NCBI RefSeq assembly: GCF_004917065.1
Contig: NZ_SSYA01000001.1
Span: forward strand, 1,372,161-1,436,160
Length of the DNA stretch: 64,000 nucleotides
Reading direction: 5' to 3'
Source: Geomonas ferrireducens
GTDB lineage: Bacteria > Desulfobacterota > Desulfuromonadia > Geobacterales > Geobacteraceae
Shown: positions 40,419 to 59,033 of the stretch, one piece after another
Layout: each line of letters starts with the position of its first letter
Position numbering within the stretch: position 1 is the stretch's first letter
Position numbers and translations under genes: made by a program
Notes under the pieces: generated by a model
What the model saw: only the letters and a program-made list of their open reading frames with translations
What the model was told of the DNA's origin: nothing
Databases searched by the model: none

Positions 40419-40435
40419 TTCGTGTCGGTAACGAA

Positions 40436-40711: not shown

Positions 40712-40763
40712 TTGTTTCTCCTTTGCTGCGTATTTTTCCTAAATAGTATAGGAAGTAAAGTCC

Positions 40764-40821: not shown

Positions 40822-40832
40822 GTCTTTTGGTT

Positions 40833-41522: not shown

Positions 41523-41526
41523 GAAG

Positions 41527-41916: not shown

Positions 41917-42130
41917 CGCGCAGCTCTTTTCCCGCTAATATGAATATGTTGCGGAAACCTGCCGCAATGCCGAAGAACATGAATATGAAGAAAAACCACG
42001 GATCGGTGCCGAGCCAATGGTCCAGTTTCAACCCCACGAAGACGCCGATGGCGATGGCCACCGCGAACGCGATCCCCATGGTGGAGATCATGCCCAGGGT
42101 CCTGAGCAGGTTCTTCTTTTCTTGTTCCAT
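41885..42130 (-). CDS. atpZ: AtpZ-type F0F1 assembly protein
   Basis: 81 residues with two membrane helices: LGMISTMGIAFAVAIAIGVFVG and WFFFIFMFFGIAAGFRNIFI, separated by the short LKLDHWLGTDP loop typical of AtpZ/AtpQ-like subunits. ATG 42130 is chosen; the longer frame begins with a non-family extension. First gene of the operon, transcribed away from the ModE-like gene. The 32-bp overlap with atpI indicates translational coupling. Confidence 0.85.
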   Translation of the reverse strand: MEQEKKNLLRTLGMISTMGIAFAVAIAIGVFVGLKLDHWLGTDPWFFFIFMFFGIAAGFRNIFILAGKELRDDGSDKDKRE

Positions 42131-42388
42131 AACTGTGCGTCCTCTGTCCCGTATACAAATCACGGGTAGAAAACCAAGGCTAAATAGCACGTCGACGGTA
42201 CTAATGTCAATTAATTTCCAAGACGCGCCTCAACAAAAATAGCGATTTATCGCGGCGTCTTGCCTTCTATGTTACCTCAGGACGGCATGGCGCGGTGGGA
42301 AAAGGTTGCCCGTTGCGGGAAAGGTGGTACCATCTGTTGCGTTGTGCGCTTTTGGTATAACGGATGAGTTCCAGGGGAAGGAGCTGCA
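42131..42388. other. Divergent intergenic region between atpZ and the ModE-like gene
   Basis: No gene is visible. It contains inverted arms AAGACGC (42220-42226) and GCGTCTT (42255-42261), and an extended -10 box TGGTATAAC (42353-42361) before the ModE-like gene. Confidence 0.45.
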
Positions 42389-42802
42389 ATGACGGACCAC
42401 AGCCGCGATGAGAGCTGCGGACAGGATGGAGCAGGGGAGAGCCGGACCGGCGCCGCTCGTCCGCGACTCTGCGTCCGTTCCAAGATCTGGATCGAACTGG
42501 ATGGGGAGCCGGTGCTGGGTCAGGGGCGGCTCGAGCTGCTGCGACTGGTGGGGAAAAGCGGTTCCATAAACGCCGCCGCGAAGGAGATGGGGATCCCCTA
42601 CCGCAAGGCATGGACCTACATCGACTCCATGGAGAAACGGCTCGGCTTTCCGCTTGTGCTTCGCTCCAAGGGGGGGAGCGGCGGTGGAGTGTCGACGCTC
42701 ACAGCCGAGGCGGAAAGCCTGCTCCAGAAGTTCGAAGCGCTGCAAAAGGGGTTCGCAGAGCTCGTGAACGGCAAGTTCGCCGACCTGGGGTTCGCCCTAT
42801 GA
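42389..42802 (+). CDS. ModE-like winged helix regulator (no molybdate-binding domain)
   Basis: 137 residues. After a polar 25-residue start, residues about 30-110 form the ModE/LysR-type winged helix: GQGRLELLRLVGKSGSINAA, AKEMGIPYRKAWTYIDSM and SKGGSGGGVSTLTAEAESLL. There is no C-terminal Mop/TOBE domain, so ligand sensing, if any, is not through the classical molybdate site. Its stop overlaps the start of the TauE/SafE gene (ATGA), so the two are coupled. AAGGAG precedes the ATG. Confidence 0.85.
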   Translation: MTDHSRDESCGQDGAGESRTGAARPRLCVRSKIWIELDGEPVLGQGRLELLRLVGKSGSINAAAKEMGIPYRKAWTYIDSMEKRLGFPLVLRSKGGSGGGVSTLTAEAESLLQKFEALQKGFAELVNGKFADLGFAL

Positions 42803-43536
42803 CGCTCACCCTGCTGGCAGCGCTCTTCGTCTGCATCCTGGTGGTCGCCGTCCTCTACTCGAGCGTGGGGCACGGCGGGGCATCCGGCTACATCGCCCTC
42901 ATGGCCCTTTTCGCCCTGCCGACCGCCTCCATAAAGCCGACCGCCCTGGTCCTCAACATCCTTGTCGCCGGTATCGCCACCTGCACCTATCGGCGCGCCG
43001 GGCAGTTCCGCTGGTCCGTCTTCTGGCCTTTTGCGGTGACCTCCATCCCGATGAGTTTCGTGGGAGGGGCGCTGCAACTCCCCGCGATCTACTTCAAGCC
43101 CCTGCTCGGGGCGGTGCTTCTTTTTGCCGCCTTCCGTCTGGTTTACCGAGAGGTAGGAAATCCGGTTCCCCCCTCGTCTCCACCCCAGGCGGTCGCGGCG
43201 GCGATCGGCATGGTCTTAGGTTTCGTCTCCGGGCTCATCGGCGTCGGGGGAGGGATCTTCCTGAGCCCGCTCCTGCTTTTATTCGGCTGGGCCACTCCCC
43301 GTCAGACCGCCGGCATTTCCGCGCTCTTCATCCTGGTCAATTCCATCGCCGGGCTGCTCGGTCATGTGAGCTCCTTGGGTAACGTCATGCCCGGTTCCGC
43401 CTGGCTCGCCGCGGCGGCCGTCCTGGGCGGCCTCTTGGGCTCGGCGCTCGGCAGCCGGCTCTTACCCGTGCCGGCCATCCTGAGGACCCTTTCCCTGGTC
43501 ACCTTTTCGGCGGCTCTGAAGCTGATTCTGACCTAG
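42799..43536 (+). CDS. TauE/SafE-family membrane transporter
   Basis: 245 residues with about eight membrane helices, in two repeated halves: SVGHGGASGYIALMALFALP in the first and GLIGVGGGIFLSPLLLLFGW in the second, the TauE/SafE hallmark Gly-rich motifs. The family exports or imports sulfite, sulfonates or related anions. Start ATG 42799 overlaps the regulator gene by 4 bp (the longer frame to 42610 is a shadow). Coupling with a ModE-type regulator hints at an oxyanion substrate, but this is inference. Its 3' end overlaps the convergent ferredoxin gene by 38 bp. Confidence 0.85.
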   Translation: MTLTLLAALFVCILVVAVLYSSVGHGGASGYIALMALFALPTASIKPTALVLNILVAGIATCTYRRAGQFRWSVFWPFAVTSIPMSFVGGALQLPAIYFKPLLGAVLLFAAFRLVYREVGNPVPPSSPPQAVAAAIGMVLGFVSGLIGVGGGIFLSPLLLLFGWATPRQTAGISALFILVNSIAGLLGHVSSLGNVMPGSAWLAAAAVLGGLLGSALGSRLLPVPAILRTLSLVTFSAALKLILT

Positions 43537-43891
43537 CCGGCACCAGGCGGAGCGCAAGGCCGGCGAGCGGGCAGCAGGAGACGCACGCGCCGCACCCGGT
43601 GCAGAGCCCCTCGTCGATGACGATGCCGACTCCCGCGGCGAAGGAGAGGGCCCCTGCCTCACACCTGTCGAGGCAGGTAAAGCAGCCGCAGCTTCCGGCC
43701 GGGCAGTGCCCCGGGTCGACCCGCGCCACCCTGGCCAGCCCAGACTCCACCACTTCTGCCGGAGAGGCCGACTGGCCCGGTTCACGGTCCCGCATCTCCA
43801 CTGTATCCGCCGGGACCCCGCCGGAGTTCAGCAGAAACTCCCCCACCGCGTACAAGCTGCCGCGAAAAAAATCCTTCCGGCTCAGGGTCAT
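43499..43891 (-). CDS. NapF-like ferredoxin of the nap cluster
   Basis: 130 residues. The N-terminus (LSRKDFFRGSLYAVGEFL) resembles NapF/NapG starts. Two Cys groups, CGCFTCLDRC and CTGCGACVSCCP, indicate iron-sulfur clusters (probably two [4Fe-4S]). The pairing S-R-K is not a full twin-arginine, so it is likely cytoplasmic like NapF, which helps load the NapA cluster. It starts at the stop codon of the NapB-like gene (ATGA overlap), marking the end of the operon. Confidence 0.75.
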   Translation of the reverse strand: MTLSRKDFFRGSLYAVGEFLLNSGGVPADTVEMRDREPGQSASPAEVVESGLARVARVDPGHCPAGSCGCFTCLDRCEAGALSFAAGVGIVIDEGLCTGCGACVSCCPLAGLALRLVPARSESASEPPKR

Positions 43892-44199
43892 TTCTTGCCG
43901 CGCTTTCCTTTCTTCAAGCTCTCCTTACCCCCCTGCACATGGCACTGGGTACAGTTGAGCCGCTCGGGGTGACTCGTGGCGGGCGCCCCCTTAACTCCGT
44001 CGCGATGGCAGACGTTGCACTCCTCGCCGTCCTGGTTCGCCTTCACGGCGTGCGGAATCACCGGGGGATCGCCGGGAGACTGCTGCGCATCCGCAGCAAG
44101 GTCGGGTGCAGACTCTTCCGCCTCGTCTCCCCATGCCGGGGCCTGTAGCGCCAGCGCCAGCAAGGCGCAAAGGATGAGTGGGAGCACGTTTTTCTTCAT
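43888..44199 (-). CDS. Short NapB-like periplasmic diheme cytochrome c
   Basis: 103 residues. Signal peptide MKKNVLPLILCALLALALQA ending near PAWG, then PPVIPHAVKANQDGEECNVCH and ATSHPERLNCTQCHVQGG, with two CxxCH haem sites near residues 64 and 84. The 'PPVIPH', 'SHP' and 'CxQCHV' elements match NapB, the electron donor to NapA, but the protein is shorter than usual (NapB is about 130-150 residues) and the haem sites are close together. The tail is Lys-rich. It lies between napH and the ferredoxin. Confidence 0.8.
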   Translation of the reverse strand: MKKNVLPLILCALLALALQAPAWGDEAEESAPDLAADAQQSPGDPPVIPHAVKANQDGEECNVCHRDGVKGAPATSHPERLNCTQCHVQGGKESLKKGKRGKK

Positions 44200-44209
44200 A
44201 TAAGACCTC

Positions 44210-45037
44210 CTATGGGGCGGACTTCTCGATAGGTCTCCCCACGTCCGTTACGGAGTGGGGCTCTTTCTTGAAACGGAACCCGACGCTCAGGGCGCGCTCG
44301 GGACAGCTGTCGAGGCAGGCAAGGCAGCGGGTGCACTCTCCGGCGCGCACACGGCACGCCCCCTGGTCCCAAAGCGGCTCGAGCACTTCCGGGACCGGGC
44401 AGACCGCAACGCAGTCGCCGCACCCCGTGCAGCGCTCCCTGCGGAAGCCGACCTTCAGCGGACTGCAGCGGGCGATGAGCGCGTAGAAGGCCCCCAGCGG
44501 GCAGAGCGAGCGGCACCAGACCCGCGGCGCAGCAACGCCTTCCACCAAGAGGATCGCCGCCGGGAGCAAAAGCGGAACGAGGGAAGCGAAGGCGATGGCG
44601 CGCCCCATGATGCCGATGGGGGACAGCACCTCGAAAAGGGGGACCCCGGTCGCCGCCACAATCACCAGCACGGCCGCCAGGACGTAGCGTCCGGTGGCAA
44701 GCGGCAGGAGCCGTCCCCCCCGCCTCATCCTGCGCGAGAACTTTTCCCCCAACTCGGTGAGAAAGCCGACCGGACAGACCCACCCGCAGAAACTGCGCCC
44801 CCCAAGGATGAAGTACCCGGAAGTCACCAGGAGCGCCCCGAAGAGGAAGGAGGGGATAAGGACGCCGGAGCCGATCACCGCCTGCAGGCAGGCGAGCGGG
44901 TCCGAAAGGCGCACCCCGCCAAGTTCCGCTGAGGCGAGGTTGCCGCTGAAAAAGGTGAACCCCGCCACCGGAGAGGCGAGCAGCAAAATGGTGCCGGTCT
45001 GCACCGCCCGGCGCGGCAGCCACCACCTAGAAGTCAT
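44210..45037 (-). CDS. napH: NapH-type quinol dehydrogenase membrane ferredoxin
   Basis: 275 residues, four membrane helices in the first two thirds, with the conserved FCGWVCPVGFLTELG and WCRSLCPLGAFYALI Cys-Pro motifs. Two [4Fe-4S] clusters follow near the C-terminus (CTGCGDCVAVCPVPEV and CTRCLACLDSCPERAL). With NapG it passes electrons from menaquinol toward NapB/NapA. ATG 45037 overlaps napG by 11 bp and follows GAGGGA. Confidence 0.9.
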   Translation of the reverse strand: MTSRWWLPRRAVQTGTILLLASPVAGFTFFSGNLASAELGGVRLSDPLACLQAVIGSGVLIPSFLFGALLVTSGYFILGGRSFCGWVCPVGFLTELGEKFSRRMRRGGRLLPLATGRYVLAAVLVIVAATGVPLFEVLSPIGIMGRAIAFASLVPLLLPAAILLVEGVAAPRVWCRSLCPLGAFYALIARCSPLKVGFRRERCTGCGDCVAVCPVPEVLEPLWDQGACRVRAGECTRCLACLDSCPERALSVGFRFKKEPHSVTDVGRPIEKSAP

Positions 45038-45683
45038 AGCCGTCCCTCTGGACCTCAACCCTCTCCCGCACCACGATCACCGGCTTTGGGAGCACGCAGG
45101 CGTTCTCGCAGACCCCGCAGCCGACGCACTTCTCCCGGTGCACCACCGGCTCCATGATGGTGTGCTCGCCGGTCCTGGGGTTGTGCCGCGGCTCCAGGGT
45201 GATGGCCTGGTCGATGAGCGGGCACTGGCGGTAACAGACCTCGCAACGCAGCCCGCGTATCGAGAGACACCCCTCCCGGTCCACGATCTGCGCGGTTCCC
45301 ATGCGCACCTTTTCCACCTCGGTGGTCTTCGGGTCGAGCGCGCCGGACGGGCAGGCCTTGACGCAGGGGAGATCGGGGCAGAGGTAGCAGGGGATCTGTC
45401 GCGCCGCGATGTACGGCGTCCCGATCCCGACGCCACGGTCCTGGAGCCTGATCGAGTGATACGGGCAGGCCTGGGCGCACTTGCCGCAGCGCACGCAGGC
45501 GGCCAGGAAGCGACGCGCCGCGATGGCGCCTGGGGGCCTGAGCACGAAGCCGTGCGCCTCCCCCGGCCGCAGGTAGACCGAGGCCCCCCCGGCGGCCGCG
45601 AGCGCGAGTGCTAAGGGTGCCAGCGCTCCCCCCTTCAGGAACCGGCGCCGCGAGATGCCGCTATCGTCCCGCTCTTTCGGCAC
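45027..45683 (-). CDS. napG: NapG-type periplasmic ferredoxin
   Basis: 218 residues. Tat signal SRRRFLKGGALAPLALALAA, then four [4Fe-4S]-type Cys groups, including CVRCGKCAQACP, CYLCPDLPCVKACP, CEVCYRQCPL and CVGCGVCENAC. Exported folded by the Tat system and associated with NapH at the outer face of the membrane. Overlaps napH and begins 5 bp after the napA stop. tatA at 25827 could serve its export. Confidence 0.92.
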   Translation of the reverse strand: MPKERDDSGISRRRFLKGGALAPLALALAAAGGASVYLRPGEAHGFVLRPPGAIAARRFLAACVRCGKCAQACPYHSIRLQDRGVGIGTPYIAARQIPCYLCPDLPCVKACPSGALDPKTTEVEKVRMGTAQIVDREGCLSIRGLRCEVCYRQCPLIDQAITLEPRHNPRTGEHTIMEPVVHREKCVGCGVCENACVLPKPVIVVRERVEVQRDGYDF

Positions 45684-45687
45684 CTCC

Positions 45688-48006
45688 CTACGCCTTTTGC
45701 ACCTTGACCGCGCACTTCTTGAAATCCGGTTCCTTGGAGAGCGGGTCGAAGGCGTCGATGCAGATCTCGTTCACCAGCTTCTTCTCGTCGAAGAAGGTGG
45801 TGAAAACGGAGCCTCGCTCCGGGGTTCCCCTGCCGCCGATCTCGGCGGTCAGCACGATCGAGCCGCGCCGCGAGGTGATGCGCACCTGGTCGCGGTTTCT
45901 GATGCCGAGCCGCTTGGCATCCTCCGGGTGCAGCTCCACCGTCGCCTGGGAGACCGCCCTCCTGAGCTCGGGGACGCGCCCGGTCATGGTGCCGGTGTGC
46001 CAGTGCTCGAGGAGCCTCCCGGTGCAGAACCAGAACGGGTAGTTGCGGTCCGGGACCTCGGCGGGCGGCTCGTAGGGACGGAACCAGACCGACACCTTGT
46101 TGTTGGGCGCCTTGTAGAACTTGATCCCCTCCCCTTTGGCGACGTGCTCGTCGTCCGCCTCGGTGTAGCGCCACCTGGTCTCCGTGCCGTTCGCTTTCAC
46201 GGGCCAGCGCAGCCCGCGCACCTTGGCGTAGGTGCCGTAGGGGGCAAGGTCCTTGCCGGTCCCCAAGGTGAACTTGCGGTACTCCTCGAAGATCGCCCGG
46301 TGCATCCCTTTCTCGGGGTAGGGGAAGAGCGCGCCGTGCCCCATCCTTTTCGCGAACTCGATCAGCTGCCAGACGTCCTCTCTCGACTTGCCCGGGGCGT
46401 TCACCATCTTGAACCACTGCTGGGTGCGCCTTTCCGTGTTGCCGAAGACCCCCTCCTTCTCCACCCAGGATGCCGAGGGGAGCACCACGTCGGCGAGCTC
46501 GGTGCTGCGGGTCGGGTAGATGTCCGAGACGACGATGAAGGCCTTTCTCGATTGGGCCGCCTTGCGCACCCGGTTCAGGTTCGGGAGCGACTGGAAGGGG
46601 TTCGTGCACTGGATCCAGACGCACTTAAGCTCGCCGCGGTCGATGGCGCGGAACATCTCGACGGTATGCAGCCCCACCTTGGCCGGTATCTTCTCCGCCG
46701 GGACCCCCCAGATCCCCGCCGCCTTTTTGCGGTGCGCCTCGTTCATCACCACCATGTCCGCCGGGAGACGGTGCGCGAAGGTGCCGACCTCGCGGGCCGT
46801 GCCGCACGCCGAGGGCTGGCCGGTGAGGGAGAGCGGGTTCTCACCGGGCCTGCAGATCTTACCGGTCAAAAGGTGCAGGTTGTAGATCAGGTTGTTCACC
46901 CATACCCCGCGGGAGTGCTGGTTCACCCCCATGGTCCAGAGCGAGTTCACCTTCCGGGACTTGTCCCCGTAGACCCTGGCGAGCTCCTCGATCTTCGCGG
47001 CCGGGATGCCGGAGACCTTCTGCGCCCACTGTGGGGTGTAAGGTTTCATGAGCGCCTTGTACTCCTCGAAGGAGAGGTTCTTCACGTCGGCCGGGGTCTC
47101 GTTGAACGCCTCCTTGTCCTTCAGACCGTAAGGGGCGTTCTCCTTCCCCCTCTTGAAGGAGACGTGCTTGGCAACGAACGCCTCGTCGTAGAGCTTGTCG
47201 CGCAGGATGACGTGGATGATGCCGTTCAGGGCGGCCAGGTCGCCGTGGGGCTTGATGGCGATATACTCGTCCGCCATCTTCGTGGTGCGCGTGCGCCTCG
47301 TCGCGATGTCGATCAGCTTCACTTTCGGGTGCTTCAGCTTGTTGTCGATGAGACGCGAGAAGAGGACCGGATGCGCCTCGGCCATGTTGGCGCCCCAAAG
47401 GACGTAGGTGTCGCCGAGGTCGAGATCGTCGTAGCACCCCATCGGCTCGTCCGAGCCGAAGGTGTTCATGAAGGCCACCACGGCGCTCGCCATGCAGAGC
47501 CTCGCGTTCGGTTCCAGGTTATTGGTGCCGATCCCCCCCTTCATCAGTTTCGAGGCGACGTAACCCTCCTGGATGGTCCACTGCCCAGAGCCGTAGAGGG
47601 CGACCGAATCGGGCCCGTGCTCGGCGATCGCCTTCTTGTACTGCGTGGCGATCAGGTCGAGCGCCTCGTCCCAGCTCGCCTCGACCATCCTGTTCCCCTT
47701 GCGGATCAGAGGCGTGGTGAGACGGTCCTTGCCGTAGAGCGCCTTCGAGAGGAAGTACCCCTTGATACAGTTGAGCCCCTTGTTCACCGGCCCGGCCGGG
47801 TCCCCCTTGGTGCTCACGATGCGCCCCCCCTTCACCCCCACCAGGACCGAGCAGCCGACGCCGCAGTACCGGCAGGGAGCCTTGCCCCAGGTGATGCCGT
47901 CCTCCGCCGCTTCCGCCCACTCGGGTCGTGCCACCGAAGCGCCTGCCGCGGCAAATGCGGCCGCAGCGGCACAGGCCTTGATGAAGTCTCGTCTGGAAAG
48001 TCCCAT
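45688..48006 (-). CDS. napA: Periplasmic nitrate reductase catalytic subunit
   Basis: 772 residues, molybdopterin enzyme reducing nitrate to nitrite. Tat signal MGLSRRDFIKACAAAAAFAA, [4Fe-4S] ligands CRYCGVGC plus GLNCIKGYFLSK, Mo-ligand Cys in NARLCMASAVVAF, and the final MopB domain with SRRGSIVLTAEI. The length is slightly under that of E. coli NapA (about 828) and close to the monomeric Desulfovibrio enzyme, so it may not need tight NapB binding. First major gene after napD. Confidence 0.95.
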   Translation of the reverse strand: MGLSRRDFIKACAAAAAFAAAGASVARPEWAEAAEDGITWGKAPCRYCGVGCSVLVGVKGGRIVSTKGDPAGPVNKGLNCIKGYFLSKALYGKDRLTTPLIRKGNRMVEASWDEALDLIATQYKKAIAEHGPDSVALYGSGQWTIQEGYVASKLMKGGIGTNNLEPNARLCMASAVVAFMNTFGSDEPMGCYDDLDLGDTYVLWGANMAEAHPVLFSRLIDNKLKHPKVKLIDIATRRTRTTKMADEYIAIKPHGDLAALNGIIHVILRDKLYDEAFVAKHVSFKRGKENAPYGLKDKEAFNETPADVKNLSFEEYKALMKPYTPQWAQKVSGIPAAKIEELARVYGDKSRKVNSLWTMGVNQHSRGVWVNNLIYNLHLLTGKICRPGENPLSLTGQPSACGTAREVGTFAHRLPADMVVMNEAHRKKAAGIWGVPAEKIPAKVGLHTVEMFRAIDRGELKCVWIQCTNPFQSLPNLNRVRKAAQSRKAFIVVSDIYPTRSTELADVVLPSASWVEKEGVFGNTERRTQQWFKMVNAPGKSREDVWQLIEFAKRMGHGALFPYPEKGMHRAIFEEYRKFTLGTGKDLAPYGTYAKVRGLRWPVKANGTETRWRYTEADDEHVAKGEGIKFYKAPNNKVSVWFRPYEPPAEVPDRNYPFWFCTGRLLEHWHTGTMTGRVPELRRAVSQATVELHPEDAKRLGIRNRDQVRITSRRGSIVLTAEIGGRGTPERGSVFTTFFDEKKLVNEICIDAFDPLSKEPDFKKCAVKVQKA

Positions 48007-48051
48007 CGCGTCCTCCTTGAGGTTGAATTGAATGCGTTAAAAACCGGCCGG

Positions 48052-48300
48052 TTATGCCCCCTCGGGAGCCGCATCTTCGAAGTTGTGGTAGGCAAGCTGC
48101 ACCGAGATCACCCCCTCCACTTGCTGCAGCCCGTTCACCAGGGCGACCTCCGCGTCGATGGTGTCGGCCTCGATGACGGCCACGATCTTGCCGTCGGCAA
48201 GCACGCCGTGCACCTCCACCCCCTGGTTGGCGGCGAGTTTTTCGGCGACGCCGCCGGCCTCCTCGGGCCTGCATGACACAACGATTCCTGAAATAGGCAT
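48052..48300 (-). CDS. napD: NapD maturation chaperone
   Basis: 82 residues: MPISGIVVSCRPEEAGGVAE, GVEVHGVLADGKIVAVIEAD and NGLQQVEGVISVQLAYHNFE, the ferredoxin-fold NapD pattern. NapD binds the NapA Tat signal until the cofactor is inserted. ATG 48300 is chosen because GGAGGGGAT precedes it; the longer frame starts in the divergent promoter region. First gene of the nap operon. Confidence 0.9.
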   Translation of the reverse strand: MPISGIVVSCRPEEAGGVAEKLAANQGVEVHGVLADGKIVAVIEADTIDAEVALVNGLQQVEGVISVQLAYHNFEDAAPEGA

Positions 48301-48664
48301 ATCCCCTCCGGGTGAGTACGGATTACTTGCATAGCAGGATGCAAAACGAAGAAATACTACCATGCTCGCTGAATTTCGCAGGTCAGGCACAAAAAACATT
48401 ACATTAGGGTAAATCCAGACAGTCATAGGCGTTGTGGCCAATCTGTCACTGCGAGCATGCCGTATCTCTAGTAAGCTTAAGGATACCTAGCGGTGCTTTC
48501 GGTGGCGGGTCAGGTAGCGCAACCCGGCCGGCAGACAGGTAATGCGACAGGCGGGGAGCAGAACTTTATTGCGTCATAAGACACTATTAAGTAGAATGTG
48601 CCAACTTTGAGGTTGCGGCAGTACCGTTTGTAGAAATCGGCGCAAGAAAACCAGGAGGTAACGG
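48301..48664. other. Divergent intergenic region between napD and the MshEN protein gene
   Basis: No gene is visible in these 364 bases. I could not find a clear promoter or a symmetric FNR-like site. A GC-rich segment (48490-48560) with GGTAGCGCAACC resembles part of a cyclic-di-GMP riboswitch stem, but the conserved core is missing. Confidence 0.4.
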
Positions 48665-49717
48665 ATGTCGGCTAAGCTTGGCGAGATGCTGCTCAAGGTG
48701 GGGGCCCTGACGAAAGGCCAGCTGGAACAGGTGCTGAAGGCGCAGATGATCTACGGGGGGAGGATAGGGACCAACCTCGTGGAGATGGGGCTCGTGTCTG
48801 AAGAGGAGCTCGCCCATGTTCTGAGTGAACAGTCCGGTGCGCCCTGCGTCGAGCCTTTCGAGCTCGGCGAGATCCCGAAAGGGGTTCTTCAATTGGTTCC
48901 GGTGGAACTGGTGCGCAAGTATCGCGTGATGCCCCTGGCGCTCGATGGCAAGCGGCTCTCCCTCGCCATGGCCGATCCCCATGACTTCGATGCCGTGGAG
49001 GAGATCGGGTTCGTCACCGGGTACGTCGTGAAACCTAGGATCTGCACCGAACTCAGGCTGAACGCGGCGCTCGAGAGGTACTACCGCATCGCCCGTCCCA
49101 CCCGCTTCATAAAGGTCGAAGGGGGGATGAGAAGCTCCTTTGAGGCTGGCGCGGCAAGCGCCGCTTCGACGCCGCTCACCGTGGGAACGCACTGGGTGAG
49201 CATGGCCGAGGAAAAGGCGCCGGCGGAACAGTTCACCGTGAAAGACGTCGCCGAGATGTTGGCGGCTGCGGCGACCGAAATGGAGGTGGTGCAGGCCTTG
49301 GTCTCCTACATGGGAGGCGAGTTCGATCGCGGCGGCTTTTTACGCCTGAAATCCGGCAAGGTTTCCGGCGTGCAGGCGGTCGCCGATGGGGAGGCCGTGG
49401 AAGGGTTTGTCCGCTTCGAGGCGGACCTGGAGCAGTTGCCGCAGATGGCGCGCATGGTGGAGGAAAAGGGGCTCGTCATGTGCGAGCTTGCCAAGGGAGA
49501 CGCCGACGGCCTGTTGGTGCGCTCACTGGGGGGTACGCTGCCCGCTTCCGCCCTACTGCTCCCCGTTTCCATGGGAGGGCACGTGGTGGCTGCGATCTGC
49601 GCGAGCGACGGCAAGGGCCGGTTAGGCGGGGGCGCATTCGAGCTGCAGCGGGTAGGCGTCATGGCCGAGCTGAGCCTCGAGATGCTCTCCCTGCGCAGGA
49701 AGATAAAATCGTCGTAG
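48665..49717 (+). CDS. Stand-alone MshEN (GspE N-terminal) domain protein
   Basis: 350 residues. Residues 1-60 hold two MshEN helix pairs: KLGEMLLKVGALTKGQLEQV and RIGTNLVEMGLVSEEELAHV, followed by the second half domain with LVPVELVRKYRVMPLALDGK and LSLAMADPHDFDAVEEIGFV. There is no ATPase domain; the rest (about 165-350) is an uncharacterised domain with an internal regulatory look (VKDVAEMLAAAATEMEVVQA). MshEN domains bind cyclic-di-GMP in relatives. CAGGAGG precedes the ATG. Monocistronic, with a strong terminator downstream. Confidence 0.78.
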   Translation: MSAKLGEMLLKVGALTKGQLEQVLKAQMIYGGRIGTNLVEMGLVSEEELAHVLSEQSGAPCVEPFELGEIPKGVLQLVPVELVRKYRVMPLALDGKRLSLAMADPHDFDAVEEIGFVTGYVVKPRICTELRLNAALERYYRIARPTRFIKVEGGMRSSFEAGAASAASTPLTVGTHWVSMAEEKAPAEQFTVKDVAEMLAAAATEMEVVQALVSYMGGEFDRGGFLRLKSGKVSGVQAVADGEAVEGFVRFEADLEQLPQMARMVEEKGLVMCELAKGDADGLLVRSLGGTLPASALLLPVSMGGHVVAAICASDGKGRLGGGAFELQRVGVMAELSLEMLSLRRKIKSS

Positions 49718-49744
49718 GCGCCTTTCCGGTCACCTAACGACGGC

Positions 49745-49788
49745 AAAAAAAAGAGGCGCCCGCGTTTGCGGGCGCCTCTTTTTTTGCG
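49745..49788. terminator. Bidirectional intrinsic terminator between the MshEN gene and hemL
   Basis: AAAAAAAAGAGGCGCCCGC and GCGGGCGCCTCTTTTTTT arms around a TTT loop, with A- and T-runs on both sides; the two genes converge on it. Confidence 0.93.
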
Positions 49789-49806
49789 CAATGGGAAAAG
49801 CTCGGC

Positions 49807-51090
49807 CTAGAGCGCCTTGAAGCACTTCGCGGCGGCGGCGATGGTCTTCTCGAGGTCCTTCTCGGTGTGGGAAGCGCCCACGAAGGCGGTCTCGAACTGG
49901 GAGCAGGCGAGGTAGACACCCTCTTCCAGCATGCCGCGGAAGTAGGTGGCGAACGCCTTCGTGTCGCACTTGGCGGCGCTGTCCCAGTTGTACACCGGCT
50001 CTTTCGAGAAGAAGCCGCAGAACATGGAGCCGACGCGGGTCGAGTAGAGCGGGTAGCCGGCGTCCTTGGCCGCCTTCGCGATCCCCTCGGCGACGAACTT
50101 GCTCTTCTCCTCGAGCTTCTCGTAGAAGCCGGGCTCCTGCAGGAGTTTCAGGGTCTCGATCCCGGCGGTCATGGCGAGCGGGTTCCCGGAAAGGGTGCCC
50201 GCCTGGTAAACCCCGCCTGCCGGCGAGAGCTGGGACATGATCTCTTTCTTCCCGCCGAAGGCGCCTACCGGGAGCCCTCCGCCGATGATCTTCCCGAGGG
50301 TGGTGAGGTCCGGGGTGATGCCGAAGCGCTCCTGGGCCCCGCCGTAGGCGACGCGGAAGCCGGACATGACCTCGTCGAAGATGAGCACGATCCCTTCCTC
50401 GGTGCAGATCTCGCGCAGCCCCTCCAGGAACCCTTCCTGCGGCGGAACGGTACCCATGTTCCCCGCCACCGGCTCGACGATGACGCAGGCGATGGTCCCC
50501 TTGTTGGCGGCCACCAGCGCGCGTACCGAGTCGAGGTCGTTGTAGGTCGCGGTCAGGGTGTGCTTTGCGAGGTCGGCAGGAACGCCCGGGGAGTCGGGCA
50601 CCCCGAAGGTGGCGAGACCGGAGCCCGCTTTCACCAGCAGGGAGTCGGAGTGGCCGTGGTAGCAGCCGGAGAACTTCAGTATGTTGTCACGCCCGGTGTA
50701 GCCGCGGGAGAGCCTGATGGCGCTCATTGTCGCCTCGGTCCCGGAGCTCACCATGCGCACCATCTCGATGGAGGGGACCGCCGCGATCACCATCTCGGCC
50801 AGGGTGATCTCGAGCTCGGTCGGCGCGCCGAAAGAGGCGCCGCTATCGACGGCCTTCTTGATCGCCTCGACCACCTTCGGGTGGCAGTGCCCGACGATCA
50901 TCGGACCCCAGGAGCCCACGTAGTCGATGTAGCCGTTGCCGTCTTCGTCGAAAATCATGGGGCCGGCAGCGCTCTTTATGAACAGCGGATCGGAGCCCAC
51001 CGAACGGAAGGCACGCACGGGGGAGTTGACCCCGCCGGGGATGGATTTGAGCGCCTGCTGAAAGAGTTGCGACGAACGGCTGTTTTGCAT
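49807..51090 (-). CDS. hemL: Glutamate-1-semialdehyde 2,1-aminomutase
   Basis: 427 residues, PLP enzyme making 5-aminolevulinate in the C5 tetrapyrrole pathway. Conserved [29 protein letters not shown], the PLP Asp in [13 protein letters not shown], the Schiff-base Lys in [18 protein letters not shown] and [11 protein letters not shown]. Length matches HemL. It is divergent from nuoA; the shared intergenic region carries a cluster of GTATAC palindromes. Confidence 0.96.
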
Positions 51091-51491
51091 GACGGGGTTC
51101 TCCTAAATGGCTGGAAATTATTAACTATCGGGCTCTCTGGTAGCATAGGGGCGGATATTCTGTCAAGAATTAAAAACTTTTCTCGTATACGGCCGGAGGG
51201 GTGAAAGAGGCGCAGGCGGGGGGGAGGCCTAAGGGTGTAATACAATTTGAGAAAAGTATACGCCGTTCTGTAAACGGTTCGTGGCTAACTGCATAATTTC
51301 TGCTTGACAAAGATGGTGAAATGAAATAATTTTCGGTCGCAATGTTGTATACAGTATACTTTTTCGAAGGCGCAGCGCTTGCTAACTATCGGAAGCGGCG
51401 GGCTTGTTGGTCGAGAAGCGTGCAGTATACGGCATTTCCGCGTGCTTGAAAAGAAAATCAACAACAACCTGGTAGTACGGGAGGATAAGGG
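51091..51491. promoter_or_regulatory. Divergent hemL/nuo regulatory region
   Basis: No gene is visible. GTATAC palindromes lie at 51185, 51256, 51347, 51354 and 51425, and a strong nuo promoter at 51304-51332. AT content is higher than in the neighbouring genes. Confidence 0.7.
51304..51332 (+). promoter_or_regulatory. Sigma70-type promoter of the nuo operon
   Basis: Perfect TTGACA (51304-51309), 17-nt spacer, TAATTT (51327-51332). The transcript would carry a leader of about 155 nt before nuoA and include two or three of the GTATAC sites. Confidence 0.65.
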
Positions 51492-51848
51492 ATGCTTGGT
51501 GCATATCTGCCAATCTTGGTGCTGGTGGTCATAGCGGTCTTGTTCGGTCTTGGGTCGGTGGTCTTCTCATCGCTCATAGGCCAGAAGAAGCCGTCTCAGG
51601 TGAAGCTCGCACCTTACGAGTGCGGTTGCGAGCCGGTGGGCAGCGCACGCGAGCGCTTCTCGATCAAGTTCTACCTGATCGCGATGCTCTTCATCCTGTT
51701 CGATATCGAGGCAGTCTTCATGTACCCCTGGGCGGTTCTCTTCAAGCGCCTGGGCATGTTCGGCCTGGCCGAGATGGGTCTCTTCATCGTCATACTCTTC
51801 GTAGGCTACATCTACGTTTGGAAAAAAGGAGCACTGGAATGGGAGTAA
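51492..51848 (+). CDS. nuoA: NADH-quinone oxidoreductase subunit A
   Basis: 118 residues, three membrane helices with the polar loop [20 protein letters not shown], the conserved Cys-loop of NuoA, and [16 protein letters not shown]. Part of the membrane arm near the quinone site of complex I. GGAGGATAAGGG precedes the ATG. Its last codons overlap nuoB. Confidence 0.96.
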
Positions 51849-52351
51849 ATCAGCCGCTGGGCGACAACATCATCACGACTTCCCTGGACAGCCTGGTTAA
51901 CTGGGCCAGGAAGTCCTCCATCTGGCCGATGACCTTTGGTCTTGCCTGCTGCGCGATCGAGATGATGGCGACCGGCGCGGCCAAGCATGACCTTGACCGT
52001 TTCGGTATCATCTTCCGCGCCTCCCCGCGTCAGTCGGACTGCATCATCATCGCCGGCACGGTAACGAAGAAGATGCTCCCGGTCATTCAGACCGTGTACG
52101 AGCAGATGCCGGAACCGAAGTGGGTGGTTGCCATGGGCGCCTGCGCCTGCTCGGGCGGGATCTTCGACACCTACTCCGTCGTGCAGGGCATCGACGAGGC
52201 GCTCCCGGTCGACGTCTACATCCCGGGGTGCCCGCCGCGTCCTGAGGCCCTTCTCTATGGCCTGATGAAGCTTCAGGACAAGATCGCCAACGAGAAGAAC
52301 TCCTTCGGCTCTTCCATCGGCTTGGGCGAAAGACTCGAACCCGCCGCATAA
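51839..52351 (+). CDS. nuoB: NADH-quinone oxidoreductase subunit B
   Basis: 170 residues. It binds cluster N2, the last iron-sulfur centre before quinone: [30 protein letters not shown] and [11 protein letters not shown] hold the ligands. The chosen ATG overlaps nuoA by 10 bp; a longer frame upstream is a shadow inside nuoA. Confidence 0.96.
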
Positions 52352-52384
52352 TCCAAAACGACCAAAGGGAAAGGTAAGGCTGAC

Positions 52385-52870
52385 ATGGCAGAAAATAATC
52401 GCGCTGTAGTGAAGCTGAAGGAGCGTTACGCGGATGCCCTTCTCGAGTACAAGGAGCATCGCGGCGAGGTGACGGTGATCGTCAAGAAGGAGAGCGTTCT
52501 CGAGGTACTGAAGTTCCTCAGGGACGACCTGCGTTACAACTTCCTCTCCGACCTTACCGCGGTCGACTACCTGGGCCAGGAGCCGCGTTTCATGGTGGTC
52601 TACAACCTCCTCTCCATCCCCAACAAGGACCGGATCAGGATTAAGGCGCCGGTGACCGAGGCGGACTGCTCCATCGAATCCGCAACAGCCCTCTGGAACT
52701 CCGCCAACTGGCTGGAGCGCGAGGTGTTTGACCTTTTCGGCATCGACTTCAAGAACCACCCGAACATGGTGCGCATCCTGATGACCGATGACTGGGTCGG
52801 GCACCCGCTCAGGAAGGACTACCCGGTCCAGGGCCCCGACCGCGAGCCGTACAAGGGACGTGTGTCGTAA
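52385..52870 (+). CDS. nuoC: NADH-quinone oxidoreductase subunit C
   Basis: 161 residues. Contains LRYNFLSDLTAVDYLG and WLEREVFDLFGIDFKNHPN, with DDWVGHPLRKDYP near the C-terminus, the hallmark of the 30-kDa subunit. It is separate from nuoD, unlike the fused NuoCD of E. coli. Peripheral arm, structural. Confidence 0.95.
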   Translation: MAENNRAVVKLKERYADALLEYKEHRGEVTVIVKKESVLEVLKFLRDDLRYNFLSDLTAVDYLGQEPRFMVVYNLLSIPNKDRIRIKAPVTEADCSIESATALWNSANWLEREVFDLFGIDFKNHPNMVRILMTDDWVGHPLRKDYPVQGPDREPYKGRVS

Positions 52871-52928
52871 GACTGAGCAAGTTCGAAACCAGGGACGATT
52901 TCCATTTCCAAGAAAATAGAGGCGATCA

Positions 52929-54098
52929 ATGGCTAGTGAAATAATGACTTTGAACATGGGGCCCCAGCACCCCAGTACCCACGGCGTTCTGAGGCTCGTA
53001 GTAGAGCTCGACGGCGAGGTGATACAGAAGATCACCCCTCACATCGGCTACCTGCACCGGGGCGTCGAGAAGCTCGCCGAGCACCGCACCTTCCACCAGG
53101 CCCTCCCCCTCACGGACCGCATGGACTACCTGGCCCCGATGCACAACAACCTGGGCTACGTCCTGGCCGTCGAGAAGCTCCTGGGCCTCGATGTCCCGGA
53201 GCGCGCGAAGCTCGTGCGCGTCATCATGGCGGAGCTCACCCGTCTGAAGAGCCACCTGGTCTGGATCGCCTGCCACGCCCTCGACATCGGCGCGATGACC
53301 GTGTTCCTCTACGCCTTCCGCGAGCGTGAGATGGTGATGGACCTCTACGAGATGGTCTCCGGCGCCAGGATGACCTCCAACTACTTCCGCGTGGGCGGCC
53401 TGTCCCGTGAGCTCCCCGCCGGCTTCGAGCAGAAGGTGCAGGAGATCGTGGACACCTTCCCGGGTCACTTCGACACCTACGAGGGGCTTCTCACCAAGAA
53501 CACCATCTGGCTGCAAAGGACCATCGGCAACGGCGTCATCTCCGCCGAGGACGCCATCGACTACGGCATCTCCGGCCCGGCCCTCAGGGGCTCCGGCGTC
53601 GACTTCGACCTCAGGCGCGACCTGCCGTACTCCGGCTACGAGGACTTCGATTTCAAGGTCCCGGTCGGCGAGAACTGCGACACCTTCGACCGCTACAAGG
53701 TACGTCTCGTAGAGATGCGCGAAGCGGTCAAGATCATCGACCAGGCCCTGAAGCGGCTGAAGCCCGGACCGATCCTGGCCGACGCGCCGCAGGTCTGCTA
53801 CCCGCCGAAGGAGAGCGTGTACAACTCCATCGAGGGTCTTATCCACCACTTCAAGATCGCTTCCGAGGGCTTCCCCGTCCCCGAGGGCGAGGTATACATG
53901 GCCGTCGAGAACCCGAAAGGGGAGCTCGGCTACTACATCGTGTCGGACGGCGGCAACAGGCCGTACCGCATGAGGGTCCGCCCGCCGTCATTCGTGAACC
54001 TCTCCGCCATCGAGAAGATGGCCAAGGGTTCCATGCTGGCCGACCTGGTTGCCGTCATCGGAACGCTAGACATCGTACTTGGCGAAATTGACCGTTAG
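52929..54098 (+). CDS. nuoD: NADH-quinone oxidoreductase subunit D
   Basis: 389 residues, 49-kDa subunit that with NuoB forms the quinone pocket. Contains NMGPQHPSTHGVLRL, IGYLHRGVEKLAE with the conserved His, YLAPMHNNLGYVLAVEKLL and SFVNLSAIEKMAKG. GGCGATCA upstream and the family start decide ATG 52929; the preceding 58 nt are non-coding. Confidence 0.96.
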   Translation: MASEIMTLNMGPQHPSTHGVLRLVVELDGEVIQKITPHIGYLHRGVEKLAEHRTFHQALPLTDRMDYLAPMHNNLGYVLAVEKLLGLDVPERAKLVRVIMAELTRLKSHLVWIACHALDIGAMTVFLYAFREREMVMDLYEMVSGARMTSNYFRVGGLSRELPAGFEQKVQEIVDTFPGHFDTYEGLLTKNTIWLQRTIGNGVISAEDAIDYGISGPALRGSGVDFDLRRDLPYSGYEDFDFKVPVGENCDTFDRYKVRLVEMREAVKIIDQALKRLKPGPILADAPQVCYPPKESVYNSIEGLIHHFKIASEGFPVPEGEVYMAVENPKGELGYYIVSDGGNRPYRMRVRPPSFVNLSAIEKMAKGSMLADLVAVIGTLDIVLGEIDR

Positions 54099-54129
54099 TT
54101 TTAATCAACAAGTAAAGGAGATGGGGTAA

Positions 54130-54636
54130 ATGTCTAACGCTCCAGCCGAAGAAATTCCGGCCGAAGAAATCGATCTGACCGAGGCCAACGAAGTCATCGA
54201 CAAGTACCTGACACTGCCGGGCAACCTCATGCCGGTCCTGCAGGGGATCCAGGAAGCTTACGGGTACGTACCGAAGCCGACCATCGACCTGGTCGCCGAG
54301 CGGCTGAACGTCTACCCGAGCCAGATCTACGGCGTGCTCACCTTCTACGCCCAGTTCCACCTGAAGCCGCGCGGCAGGTTCATCATCAGGGTCTGCGTCG
54401 GCACCGCCTGCCACGTACAGGGGGCGGAGCGCATCACCGAGACCTTCTTCGGGCGCCTGGGGATCGGGCACGCGGAAACCACAGCCGACCTGCGCTACAC
54501 CTTCGAGAAGGTGGCCTGCCTCGGCGCCTGCGGCATGGCGCCTCTGGCCATGGTGAACGACGACACCTTCGGCAAGATGACGGTCCAGAAAGTGGACGAG
54601 ATCATTGAAACCTACAACGCACGGCCGATGAAGTAA
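54130..54636 (+). CDS. nuoE: NADH-quinone oxidoreductase subunit E
   Basis: 168 residues, thioredoxin-fold [2Fe-2S] subunit. Ligands are in VCVGTACHVQGAE and KVACLGACGMAPL (four Cys), as in other NuoE. The N-terminus has a duplicated PAEEI, and the helical region LPGNLMPVLQGIQEAYGYVP is typical. AAGGAGATGGGG precedes the start. Confidence 0.95.
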   Translation: MSNAPAEEIPAEEIDLTEANEVIDKYLTLPGNLMPVLQGIQEAYGYVPKPTIDLVAERLNVYPSQIYGVLTFYAQFHLKPRGRFIIRVCVGTACHVQGAERITETFFGRLGIGHAETTADLRYTFEKVACLGACGMAPLAMVNDDTFGKMTVQKVDEIIETYNARPMK

Positions 54637-54673
54637 GCCGAGACGTCAATTTCTCAGCAGGGGACCTTTTGTC

Positions 54674-56455
54674 ATGAGCGATAACGCAGGAATCAAAATA
54701 CTTATCTGTCAGGGCACCGGCGGCATCTCGGCCGGCGCCAAGCAGGTCGAGGCCGAGTTCACCAGGCTGATAGCGGAGAAGGGGATCGTGGCCCAGGTCG
54801 GCAAGCGTTGCGACGTGGTCAAGACCGGCTGCCGCGGCCTGTGCGCCAACGACGTTCTGGTTGACGTCATCACCCCCGAACTGGGCAGGGTCACCTACGA
54901 CTTCGTCGTGCCCGAGGACGTCGCGGCGATCCTCGACCAGCACATCGTCAACAACGAAGTCATCGAGAAGAAAAAGGCCAAGGCCTACTACAACACCTTC
55001 GTCGACCAGCAGATGCGCGTGGTCATGACCGGCTGCGGCCAGATCGACCCCGAGCGTCTGGACGCCTTCCTCGAAGAGGACGGCTTCAAGGCGATCGAGA
55101 AGTGCGTCAAAGAGATGAAGCCTTCCGAAGTCATCGACGAAGTGAAGAAATCCGGGCTTCGTGGCCGTGGGGGCGGCGGCTTCCCGACCGGCATGAAGTG
55201 GAGCTTCTGCGCCGCTTCGCCGGGCAACCACAAGTACCTCATCTGCAACGCCGACGAAGGTGACCCGGGCGCGTTCATGGACCGCTCCATCCTCGAAGGT
55301 GACCCGTACTGCGTCATCGAGGGTATGATGATCGCGGCTTACGCCATCGGTTGCGACGCAGGCTACGTCTACGTCCGTGCCGAGTACCCGCTCGCCATCG
55401 ACCGTCTCCAGAAGGCGCTCGATACCTGCTACGAGAAAGGGTACCTGGGCAAGAACATTCAGGGTTGGGGTTTCGACTTCGACATGAGGATCAAGAAGGG
55501 CGCCGGCGCGTTCGTCTGCGGCGAGGAAACCGCCCTCATGGCCTCCATCGAAGGCGAGCGCGGCATGCCGCGTCCCCGTCCGCCGTTCCCGGCGGTCAAG
55601 GGCCTCTGGGGCTTCCCGACCAACATCAACAACGTTGAGACCTTCGCCAACGTGCGCCACATCATCAACAAGGGCTCCGATTGGTACTCATCGCTCGGCA
55701 CCGATACCACCAAGGGTACCAAGATCTTCGCGGTCACCGGCAAGGTAAAGCACACCGGTCTCGTCGAGGTTCCGGCCGGTATGTCGGTACGTGACGTTAT
55801 CTACCAGGTCTGCGGCGGCATCGCCAACAACCGCAAGTTCAAGGCGGTTCAGGCCGGCGGTCCTTCCGGCGGCTGCATCCCGGCCGAGGTGCTCGACACC
55901 CCGGTCGACTACGACTCGCTGATCAAGGCGGGCGCCATGATGGGTTCCGGCGGTCTGGTCGTCATGGACGAGACCACCTGCATGGTCGACGTGGCCCGCT
56001 TCTTCCTCTCCTTCACCAAGATGGAGTCCTGCGGCAAGTGCGTTCCCTGCCGTATCGGCCTGAAGGCCATGCTCGACATCCTGGAGAGGATCACCGAAGG
56101 TCGGGGCGAGATGGAAGACATCGACACCCTCCTGGAGATGGGCGCCACCATCAAGAAGGCATCCCTTTGCGGTCTGGGGCAGACGGCTCCGAACCCGATT
56201 CTCTCCACCGTCAAGTATTTCAGGCATGAGTACGAAGCGCACATCCTGGAGAAGCGCTGCCCCTCCAACTCCTGCAAGGAACTCCTCCTGTGGCAGGTGG
56301 TCCCCGAGAAGTGCGTCAAGTGTGGCGCGTGCCTCAGGGCCTGCCCGTCCAACGCCATCAAGTGGGAAAAGGGCGAGGTGGCGTTCCTGGTCAAGGAGAA
56401 CTGCACCAAGTGCAAGTCCTGCTACGACGCCTGCCGCTTCATGGCAATTGAGTAA
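54674..56455 (+). CDS. nuoF: NADH-quinone oxidoreductase subunit F with extra terminal domains
   Basis: 593 residues, longer than E. coli NuoF (about 445). Residues 1-125 are a thioredoxin-like [2Fe-2S]-type domain as in HndC/HydB, but one of its four Cys is replaced: Cys12, Gly17, Cys53, Cys57. The FMN/NADH core has GLRGRGGGGFPTG and NADEGDPGAFMDR. The [4Fe-4S] ligands are in ESCGKCVPCRIG. A C-terminal dicluster ferredoxin (CVKCGACLRACP, CTKCKSCYDACR) ends the protein. Such an architecture is shared with bifurcating or soluble hydrogenase/formate subunits, so the electron route may differ from standard complex I. Cassette C separates it from nuoG. Confidence 0.93.
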   Translation: MSDNAGIKILICQGTGGISAGAKQVEAEFTRLIAEKGIVAQVGKRCDVVKTGCRGLCANDVLVDVITPELGRVTYDFVVPEDVAAILDQHIVNNEVIEKKKAKAYYNTFVDQQMRVVMTGCGQIDPERLDAFLEEDGFKAIEKCVKEMKPSEVIDEVKKSGLRGRGGGGFPTGMKWSFCAASPGNHKYLICNADEGDPGAFMDRSILEGDPYCVIEGMMIAAYAIGCDAGYVYVRAEYPLAIDRLQKALDTCYEKGYLGKNIQGWGFDFDMRIKKGAGAFVCGEETALMASIEGERGMPRPRPPFPAVKGLWGFPTNINNVETFANVRHIINKGSDWYSSLGTDTTKGTKIFAVTGKVKHTGLVEVPAGMSVRDVIYQVCGGIANNRKFKAVQAGGPSGGCIPAEVLDTPVDYDSLIKAGAMMGSGGLVVMDETTCMVDVARFFLSFTKMESCGKCVPCRIGLKAMLDILERITEGRGEMEDIDTLLEMGATIKKASLCGLGQTAPNPILSTVKYFRHEYEAHILEKRCPSNSCKELLLWQVVPEKCVKCGACLRACPSNAIKWEKGEVAFLVKENCTKCKSCYDACRFMAIE

Positions 56456-56463
56456 TAACGACA

Positions 56464-56534
56464 GTTCTAGGTTCTACGTTCCAGGTTCTAAGTTAAAAGC
56501 CTGAACGTAGAACGTAGAACATAGAACGTAGAAC
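56464..56534. repeat. Heptamer inverted cassette C (four + four units) inside the nuo operon
   Basis: Left arm 56464-56491: GTTCTAG, GTTCTAC, GTTCCAG, GTTCTAA. Right arm 56507-56534: GTAGAAC, GTAGAAC, ATAGAAC, GTAGAAC. The spacer is only 15 bp, so the transcript can form a stem of about 28 bp. It starts 9 bp after the nuoF stop and ends 33 bp before nuoG. Confidence 0.92.
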
Positions 56535-56567
56535 CAGATTTATGACTCCGGGGAGACAGAGGTCGAG

Positions 56568-59033
56568 ATGGTAAATCTTACGATAAACGGAAAACAGGTT
56601 GCGGTAGAAAAGGACGCCACCATTTACGACGCCGCCAAGGCGTGTGGTATCAAGATACCGATCCTTTGCCATGACAAAAAGCTGCACCCGTTCGGCGGCT
56701 GCCGCATGTGCCTCGTTGAGGTGGAGCAGATGAAGGGACGTCTCATCCCCGCCTGCACCACCCCGGTCACCGAGGGTATGATCGTGCAGACCACCACCGA
56801 CGAGATCGTGAAGGCGAGGAAGCTGGTCCTTGAGCTCCTGCTCCTCAAGCACCCGATCGACTGCCCGGTCTGCGACGCCGCAGGCGACTGCGATCTGCAG
56901 AACCTCACCTACGAGTACAAGGTGAACATGAACCGGTTCGTGGACGAGAAGTTCAACCACGAGATCGACTACGAAAACCCGCTCATCGAGCGCGACATGA
57001 ACCGCTGCATCCACTGCGGCAAGTGCGCGAGGATCTGCGACGAGATCGTTTCCTACGGCGCCTACACCTTCATCAACCGCGGCATCGAGGCGAAGATGGG
57101 GACCGAGTTCGACGGCCCCCTGAACTGCGAGTTCTGCGGCTCCTGCGTCTCGGTCTGTCCGGTGGGCGCGCTGAACTCCCGCCCCTTCAAGTTCAAGGCC
57201 CGCTGGTGGGCGCTGCAGAAGACCAAGAGCGTATGCTCCTACTGCGGCACCGGCTGCCAGCTCACCCTGGGGAGCAAGGACGGCAAGGTCCTCACCACCA
57301 TCTACGACGAGAACCAGGGCTTCCATAACGGCCAGCTCTGCACCCGCGGCCGCTTCGGCTACCAGTTCGTCAACTCCGACAAGCGCCTCACCACTCCGCT
57401 TGTGAGGAAAAACGGCAAGCTCCAGGAAGCGACCTGGGAAGAGGCCCTCGCCGAGGTGACCTCCAGGCTTTCCGCCGGCAAGAGCGATCCCGCTTCCGTG
57501 GCTGCGCTTGCCACCCCGAGGCTTACCAACGAAGAACTCTTCCTCCTTGAGAAGGTCTTCCGCGGCACCATCGGCACCGACAACATCGACCACTCGGCGG
57601 GCTTCGCCCACGAGGCGCTCACCAAGGGGGCCGTCGCTTCCTTCGGCGTCGCCGCCTCCCCCTCCGAGATCGCCGACATCCAGAAGTCGAACCTGCTCCT
57701 CGTCGTGAAATCCGACGCCTACGAGACCCACCCGGTCATCGGCTTCGAGATCAACCTCGGCGTGAAGAGAAAAGGGGTCGCCATCAGGATCGTCTCCGAC
57801 AAGAAAGGCAAACTCACCCGTCTGCCGGGCGCCAAGACCACGGTCCACACCCCGGGTAGCGAGGTTGCCCTCTTCAACGCGCTCTGCAAGTCGGTCATCG
57901 ACCAGGGTCTCGTCGCTGAAGGCGTTGCCGGTCTGGATGCCCTGAAGGCCGCAGTCGCCGATGCCACCGCCGAGAAGGCCGGTGTCACCGCCGAGGAGAT
58001 CGCGGCAGTCGCAAAAGACTACGCCACCGCCGAGAAGGCACTCATCATCCTCCCGATCGGCCTCGGCTACCCCGGCCACAACGCTGCCCTTGCCTCCGCA
58101 GCAGCGAACCTCGCCATCCTCACCGGCAAGATCGGCAAGGAAGGCTCGGGTCTCCTCATCATGGGCGAGAAGAACAACAGCCAGGGCGCGGTCGACATGG
58201 GTATCTACCCGAAAGGGACCGGGCTTGCCGCTTCCGCCATCATCGACGGCTGCGCGAACGGCAACGTGAAGACACTGTTCGTCGCCGGCGAGAACCCGGT
58301 GGTTTCCTACCCGAACCGCAAGAAGGTCGAGAAGGCGCTCGAGAACGTCGAGTTCATGGTGGTTGCCGACCTCTTCCTCACCGAGACCGCGGCCCTTGCC
58401 GACGTGGTGCTCCCGGCCTGCTCCTTCGCGGAGAAGAACGGTACCTTCACCTCGCTCGGGCGCCGCGTCCAAAACGTGAGAAAGGCGATTCCGGCGGTGG
58501 GCCTTGCGAAGACCGACTTCGAGATCCTGAACGCGCTCTCCCAGGCTCTCGGCGGGGCCCGCTACAACAATCAGGGCGAGGTCTTCACCGAGATCGCAGC
58601 AACCGTCCCGGCCTACAAGGGTCTCAGCCAGGCGGGTCTCAAGGACGAAGGGGCCGTTTACCCGGTCGCCGTCGCCGCCAAACTGGTTCCGGTTCAGGCA
58701 AAAACGGCAGCACCTGCTGCCGGCAAGCTCGCCATGGTCACCGGCAGCGCCCTTTACCACTGCGGCACCATGAGCCGCTTCGGCGAAGGCCCGATGTACG
58801 TCTGCCCGGATGCCTACGCGGAACTGAACGTGGCCGACGCATCGGCACTGAAGATCGCCGAGGGTGACCAGGTCACCGTAACGAGCGCCACCGGCGCGGT
58901 GCAGGTTGCCGCCAAGGTCGGCAAGAGGGTGCCCCAGGGCGTCGTCTTCTCCCCCTACCACTTCGGTGAGGGGAGCGTCAACACCATCACTGACGGCGCC
59001 GAGGTCACCTACGTCACCGTCGCCAAGAAATAG
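56568..59033 (+). CDS. nuoG: NADH-quinone oxidoreductase subunit G
   Basis: 821 residues. N-terminal [2Fe-2S] (CHDKKLHPFGGCRMCLVE), the His-Cys3 cluster (HPIDCPVCDAAGDC), then CIHCGKCARIC and CEFCGSCVSVCP for two [4Fe-4S] clusters, and the N7-type site CSYCGTGC. The rest is a MopB-fold region (about 220-821) without a clear molybdenum ligand, as usual in NuoG. Compositionally biased Ala-rich stretches occur in the C-terminal third. Confidence 0.95.
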   Translation: MVNLTINGKQVAVEKDATIYDAAKACGIKIPILCHDKKLHPFGGCRMCLVEVEQMKGRLIPACTTPVTEGMIVQTTTDEIVKARKLVLELLLLKHPIDCPVCDAAGDCDLQNLTYEYKVNMNRFVDEKFNHEIDYENPLIERDMNRCIHCGKCARICDEIVSYGAYTFINRGIEAKMGTEFDGPLNCEFCGSCVSVCPVGALNSRPFKFKARWWALQKTKSVCSYCGTGCQLTLGSKDGKVLTTIYDENQGFHNGQLCTRGRFGYQFVNSDKRLTTPLVRKNGKLQEATWEEALAEVTSRLSAGKSDPASVAALATPRLTNEELFLLEKVFRGTIGTDNIDHSAGFAHEALTKGAVASFGVAASPSEIADIQKSNLLLVVKSDAYETHPVIGFEINLGVKRKGVAIRIVSDKKGKLTRLPGAKTTVHTPGSEVALFNALCKSVIDQGLVAEGVAGLDALKAAVADATAEKAGVTAEEIAAVAKDYATAEKALIILPIGLGYPGHNAALASAAANLAILTGKIGKEGSGLLIMGEKNNSQGAVDMGIYPKGTGLAASAIIDGCANGNVKTLFVAGENPVVSYPNRKKVEKALENVEFMVVADLFLTETAALADVVLPACSFAEKNGTFTSLGRRVQNVRKAIPAVGLAKTDFEILNALSQALGGARYNNQGEVFTEIAATVPAYKGLSQAGLKDEGAVYPVAVAAKLVPVQAKTAAPAAGKLAMVTGSALYHCGTMSRFGEGPMYVCPDAYAELNVADASALKIAEGDQVTVTSATGAVQVAAKVGKRVPQGVVFSPYHFGEGSVNTITDGAEVTYVTVAKK

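Follow-up and report, generated by a model that had tools for sequence, protein, structure and literature searches.

The promoter of the complex I (nuo) operon of Geomonas ferrireducens carries a 13-bp palindrome whose conservation, together with the coherence of the genes that share it, strongly supports its reading as a putative operator for a transcription factor. With a probability of about 0.75, this site is the operator of a Geobacterales GntR/FCD repressor that would be autoregulated and would also repress genes of the TCA cycle and of acetate activation. Positions are given in the 64,000-nucleotide stretch of DNA that was analysed (the window), unless another source is named.

The core site at the nuo promoter and at other genes

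The features of the nuo promoter region were as follows.

51304 to 51332, plus strand: nuo promoter, read from the sequence (TTGACA at 51304-51309, 17 bp, TAATTT at 51327-51332)
51347 to 51359, unstranded: putative core operator O1, GTATACAGTATAC, a 13-bp palindrome with two GTATAC copies 7 bp apart
51492 to 51848, plus strand: nuoA, which opens the complex I operon (NCBIfam NADH-quinone oxidoreductase subunit A, at 7e-43, a match just below the curated cut-off)

The next gene of the operon, nuoD, lies at 52929. The nuo promoter was found where an earlier sequence-only reading of this DNA had placed it, and its -35 and -10 hexamers are both invariant in 15 relatives. O1 is located 14 bp 3' of the -10 hexamer, at about +8 to +20 of a transcription start predicted near 51339. 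Conservation of the site was scored in 80 nuoA loci, nearly all of them from Geobacterales by title; the best nuoA matches place this genome close to Geomonas. Of the 80 loci, 76 carry the exact 13-mer (with A or T at its centre) no more than 160 bp from the nuoA start; two of the remaining four carry it with one mismatch (L035, L070) and two lack it (L082, L090). Where a TTGACA-type nuo promoter was recognisable, the operator usually started ~9–15 bp past the -10. GTATAC density in the 80 loci was 5.3/kb upstream of nuoA versus 0.14/kb elsewhere. Both hexamers of O1 (51347 and 51354) were intact in 15 of 15 close relatives, including the seven outside core Geomonas. The sequence-only reading had made its operator proposal depend on conservation in related nuo promoters, and for the core site that conservation was found. 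A 13-bp motif was built from 85 distinct sites with Geomonas-type nuo loci excluded from training, and O1 was its top match in the window (25.6 bits). No Rfam family was found within window positions 40000-58000.

The exact 13-mer occurs three times in this genome, upstream of nuoA, monomeric isocitrate dehydrogenase (icd) and citrate synthase (gltA), and copies with one mismatch occur six times, at sdhC/tgt, an sfrB-like oxidoreductase, succinyl:acetate CoA-transferase, the GntR gene, acnB and alcohol dehydrogenase/moaA. Eight of the nine sites are thus at nuo, icd, gltA, sdhC, the sfrB-like gene, the CoA-transferase gene, acnB and gntR; the ninth, GGATACCGTATAC between an iron-type alcohol dehydrogenase gene and moaA (1501-1513 of locus L009), has no place in the acetate-oxidation set and is possibly background. 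The site at gltA lies at about +8 of a TTGAAA-17-TATACA promoter, and that at acnB overlaps the -10. In the genomes of three relatives (G009, G029 and G033) the same gene classes carry the site, which is found in addition at class I fumarase and at an ATP synthase subunit of F0 b type (identified from its translation, with no NCBIfam match); a few one-mismatch sites in these genomes have no obvious link to the gene set and may be background. A reversed-pattern control nearly always gave 0 matches. Patterns with two mismatches were at background level only (40 versus 41 in the control), and weak sites were therefore not called genome-wide.

One further candidate lies within the window.

42144 to 42156, minus strand: possible weak operator across the apparent -10 of the operon leading to atpB, third-best motif match in the window

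The GTATAC of this site (42151-42156), upstream of atpB (the gene for ATP synthase F0 a), is kept in the first nine Geomonas loci examined. In a relative (L186), GTATACTGTATTC was seen further upstream of the atpB operon. A literature text search for GTATAC with Geobacter returned no match, and the palindrome is absent from the passages on other repeat families in the papers on the genomes of G. metallireducens and G. bemidjiensis.

The candidate GntR/FCD regulator

The candidate owner of the operator is encoded elsewhere in the genome.

G000:C1:1573385-1574071, minus strand: GntR/FCD regulator gene

The product belongs to the FCD subfamily of the GntR family, with an N-terminal GntR winged helix (PF00392, 68.9 bits) and a C-terminal FCD domain (PF07729, 95.6 bits), both above cut-off. 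Many FCD proteins, though not all, have an Asp-His-His-His metal site. At the four positions that we take to be these ligands, the residues of the regulator group are His, His, His and Asn, without variation among the orthologs inspected, so its ligand chemistry may be unusual. The same two-domain architecture of HTH and FCD is found in the GntR/FCD structures 7xp0, 3c7j, 4p9f (McbR) and 3fms (TM0439-type), all of low similarity to this regulator.

In the promoter of the regulator gene itself, GGATACTGTATAC lies between TTGACA (-35) and TACAAT (-10), and an exact or near-exact site was found in the gntR promoter of 29 of 30 orthologs. The regulator is single copy in every genome but one. Across 141 genomes, regulator and site largely co-occur: at the order level at least one site was present in 113 of 117 genomes with the regulator versus 11 of 24 without it, and at the family level the 37 genomes (of 48) with the regulator all have 3–9 exact sites and the 11 without it have no site (eight), one (two) or four (one, 78% complete), all these counts coming from related genomes and hence not being independent events. 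Four well-assembled genomes of one genus (G081, G093, G108 and G112) have no close relative of the regulator, yet hold one or two exact sites; another regulator may have taken over there, or the gene may be missing from the assembly. The nuoA of two genera without the regulator (g2 and g13) is distant (about 40% identity), and these genera therefore give no clean test of loss.

A passage of PMC10599522, citing Ueki and Lovley 2010, has the gltA promoter of G. sulfurreducens bound by GSU3370, a GntR-family protein. The gene order here is GntR, selA, ispD, ispF, glnS, cysS (named from recognisable translations), and the gene count from GntR onward matches the numbering from GSU3370 down to GSU3364 (HgtR); from this fit of order and count, the GntR gene is probably the ortholog of GSU3370. 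The site to be expected at the gltA promoter for a GSU3370 regulon is present, as the exact 13-mer upstream of citrate synthase. The likeness to GSU3370 consists of family, gltA target and gene count via selA, ispD, ispF, glnS and cysS toward GSU3364, whereas here a conserved 13-bp site is defined and the target set reaches nuo, icd, acnB, sdhC, CoA-transferase, fumarase and the regulator's own gene. GSU0514, the regulator of sucCD, was dropped as a candidate as it is of the IclR family.

HgtR (GSU3364), a hydrogen-induced repressor, has to be weighed as an alternative owner, or as a regulator sharing the palindrome with the GntR protein. It down-regulates gltA, atpG and nuoA in G. sulfurreducens according to a passage of PMC7726332, and all three of these classes have the site, either in this genome or in relatives; this comparison with the GntR protein, the product of a different gene, is by reported targets only. 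Because these targets overlap the present gene set HgtR stays a rival, although an unlikely one: the palindrome sits in the gntR promoter of nearly all orthologs and co-occurs with the gntR gene across genomes, and both the autoregulatory site and this co-occurrence favour the GntR protein, if indirectly.

Outer GTATAC copies and the spacing of the cluster

Upstream and downstream of O1, the region between hemL and nuoA holds the following features.

49807 to 51090, minus strand: hemL, the divergent neighbour (NCBIfam TIGR00713 hemL, above cut-off)
51138 to 51166, minus strand: putative hemL promoter (TTGACA at 51166-51161; -10 near 51143-51138, a poor match)
51185 to 51190, unstranded: outermost GTATAC, nearest hemL, of doubtful function
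51249 to 51261, unstranded: possible half-site O3, GAGAAAAGTATAC, containing the GTATAC at 51256 (16th motif match in the window)
51418 to 51430, unstranded: putative weak second operator O2, GCGTGCAGTATAC, containing the GTATAC at 51425

With the two hexamers of O1, GTATAC occurs at 51185, 51256, 51347, 51354 and 51425, five times in 246 bp of the hemL-nuoA intergenic region, at successive intervals of 71, 91, 7 and 71 bp. These positions and intervals, and the extended form GTATACGSC at three sites, agree with the sequence-only reading. Fifteen close relatives were aligned to count retention of the outer copies; for the seven non-core sequences the background mean was 0.48. The 51425 hexamer was intact in 13 of 15 relatives (5 of 7 outside core Geomonas), that at 51256 in 10 of 15 (2 of 7), being restricted to core Geomonas plus two nearby loci, and that at 51185 in 8 of 15, namely the eight core Geomonas sequences (0 of 7). 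O2 ranked second in the 64 kb (1.3 bits) under a motif from whose training these nuo loci had been left out. At 51185 the 13-bp motif matched in neither register, and the likeness of this copy to an operator ends at the hexamer. The arrangement is best read as a putative core operator accompanied by a weak operator that is conserved and by a possible half-site. In two Geomonas species (L021 and L023) the 51256 and 51185 sites are absent and a GTATAC lies elsewhere, nearer hemL, at about -274 upstream of nuoA; its form in L023 is CTGTATACAGTT. Satellite sites seem to come and go between species.

From the same five copies, the sequence-only reading had proposed a symmetric operator array that could loop DNA and co-regulate hemL and nuo. 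Of this proposal, a transcription-factor operator at nuo is strongly supported; the five-site symmetric array is not, and looping of this kind is improbable. The density of the copies, the conservation of O2 and the constant 91-bp distance from O3 to O1 (51256 to 51347) wherever species have both sites, which is a shallow observation, speak for such an array. Against it, O1 alone is near-universal and is the sole site in most relatives. The symmetry consists of two 71-bp intervals whose equality is peculiar to this strain; relatives have 71–74 bp in the downstream interval and 71–73 bp in the outer upstream one, and since both vary between species the equal spacings look coincidental. Phased symmetric looping was rejected on this drift of up to 3 bp and on the lack of conservation of 51185 outside core Geomonas. 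Co-regulation of hemL is likewise a weak claim, as it depends only on 51185, a copy confined to core Geomonas and separated by ~19 bp from the -35 of the putative hemL promoter, on its upstream side. The stretches 51138-51145 and 51160-51167 of this putative promoter are conserved in 13 of 15 relatives.

The cluster lies far above chance expectation. GTATAC was counted 8 times in the window versus 2.1 expected and 239 times in the whole genome (4.81 Mb), a density at which ~2e-7 clusters with five copies inside 246 bp would be expected genome-wide, rising to ~1e-4 if intergenic GTATAC density were five times higher. A chance or compositional origin of the cluster can be given practically no weight, since composition predicts 0.07 copies in the 401-bp intergenic stretch even though this DNA is AT-richer (47% GC), and near-universal conservation refutes chance for the core site, although 51185 taken singly could be chance.

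Elsewhere in the window, a NapA-like molybdopterin oxidoreductase gene (45688-48441, minus strand) was observed; next to it, at 44210-45683, lie ferredoxin-type genes and a small NapD-like gene, and by appearance these genes form a periplasmic nitrate reductase cluster.

Proposed mechanism and its bearing on acetate respiration

Under the preferred reading, in which the GntR/FCD protein owns the site, a GntR dimer would bind O1 just 3' of the nuo start and would block initiation or promoter escape; repression is suggested by position alone, as the sites overlap the -10 or early transcribed DNA. Binding may be stabilised by 51418-51430 and possibly by the half-site at 51249-51261. The same protein would repress its own gene in negative autoregulation, as well as gltA, acnB, icd, sdhC, the CoA-transferase gene and the sfrB-like gene and, in relatives, fumarase and ATP synthase genes. 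The FCD domain would presumably sense a metabolite of acetate oxidation. With one repressor for nuo and for the TCA-cycle and acetate genes, complex I would rise and fall with acetate oxidation.

A broader version is offered tentatively, with the odds somewhat against it: a single autoregulated GntR/FCD protein, responsive to a metabolite of acetate oxidation, may act throughout the order Geobacterales as the master switch of acetate respiration, with the TCA cycle, complex I, ATP synthase and acetate activation under its joint control. The weak satellite operators added at nuo in Geomonas would then give tighter or cooperative repression of that operon.

Geobacterales are major acetate-oxidising metal reducers and colonisers of electrodes. 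To our knowledge, little has been established of how the rates of the TCA cycle and the respiratory chain are set jointly in this order. The comparisons made here probably extend the reported gltA regulator to complex I and to most of the acetate-oxidation pathway. A defined putative operator, a target list and a candidate repressor make joint control of the TCA cycle and respiration directly testable, and the operator and target list could separate the roles of the GntR protein and HgtR at the promoters that both are reported to share.
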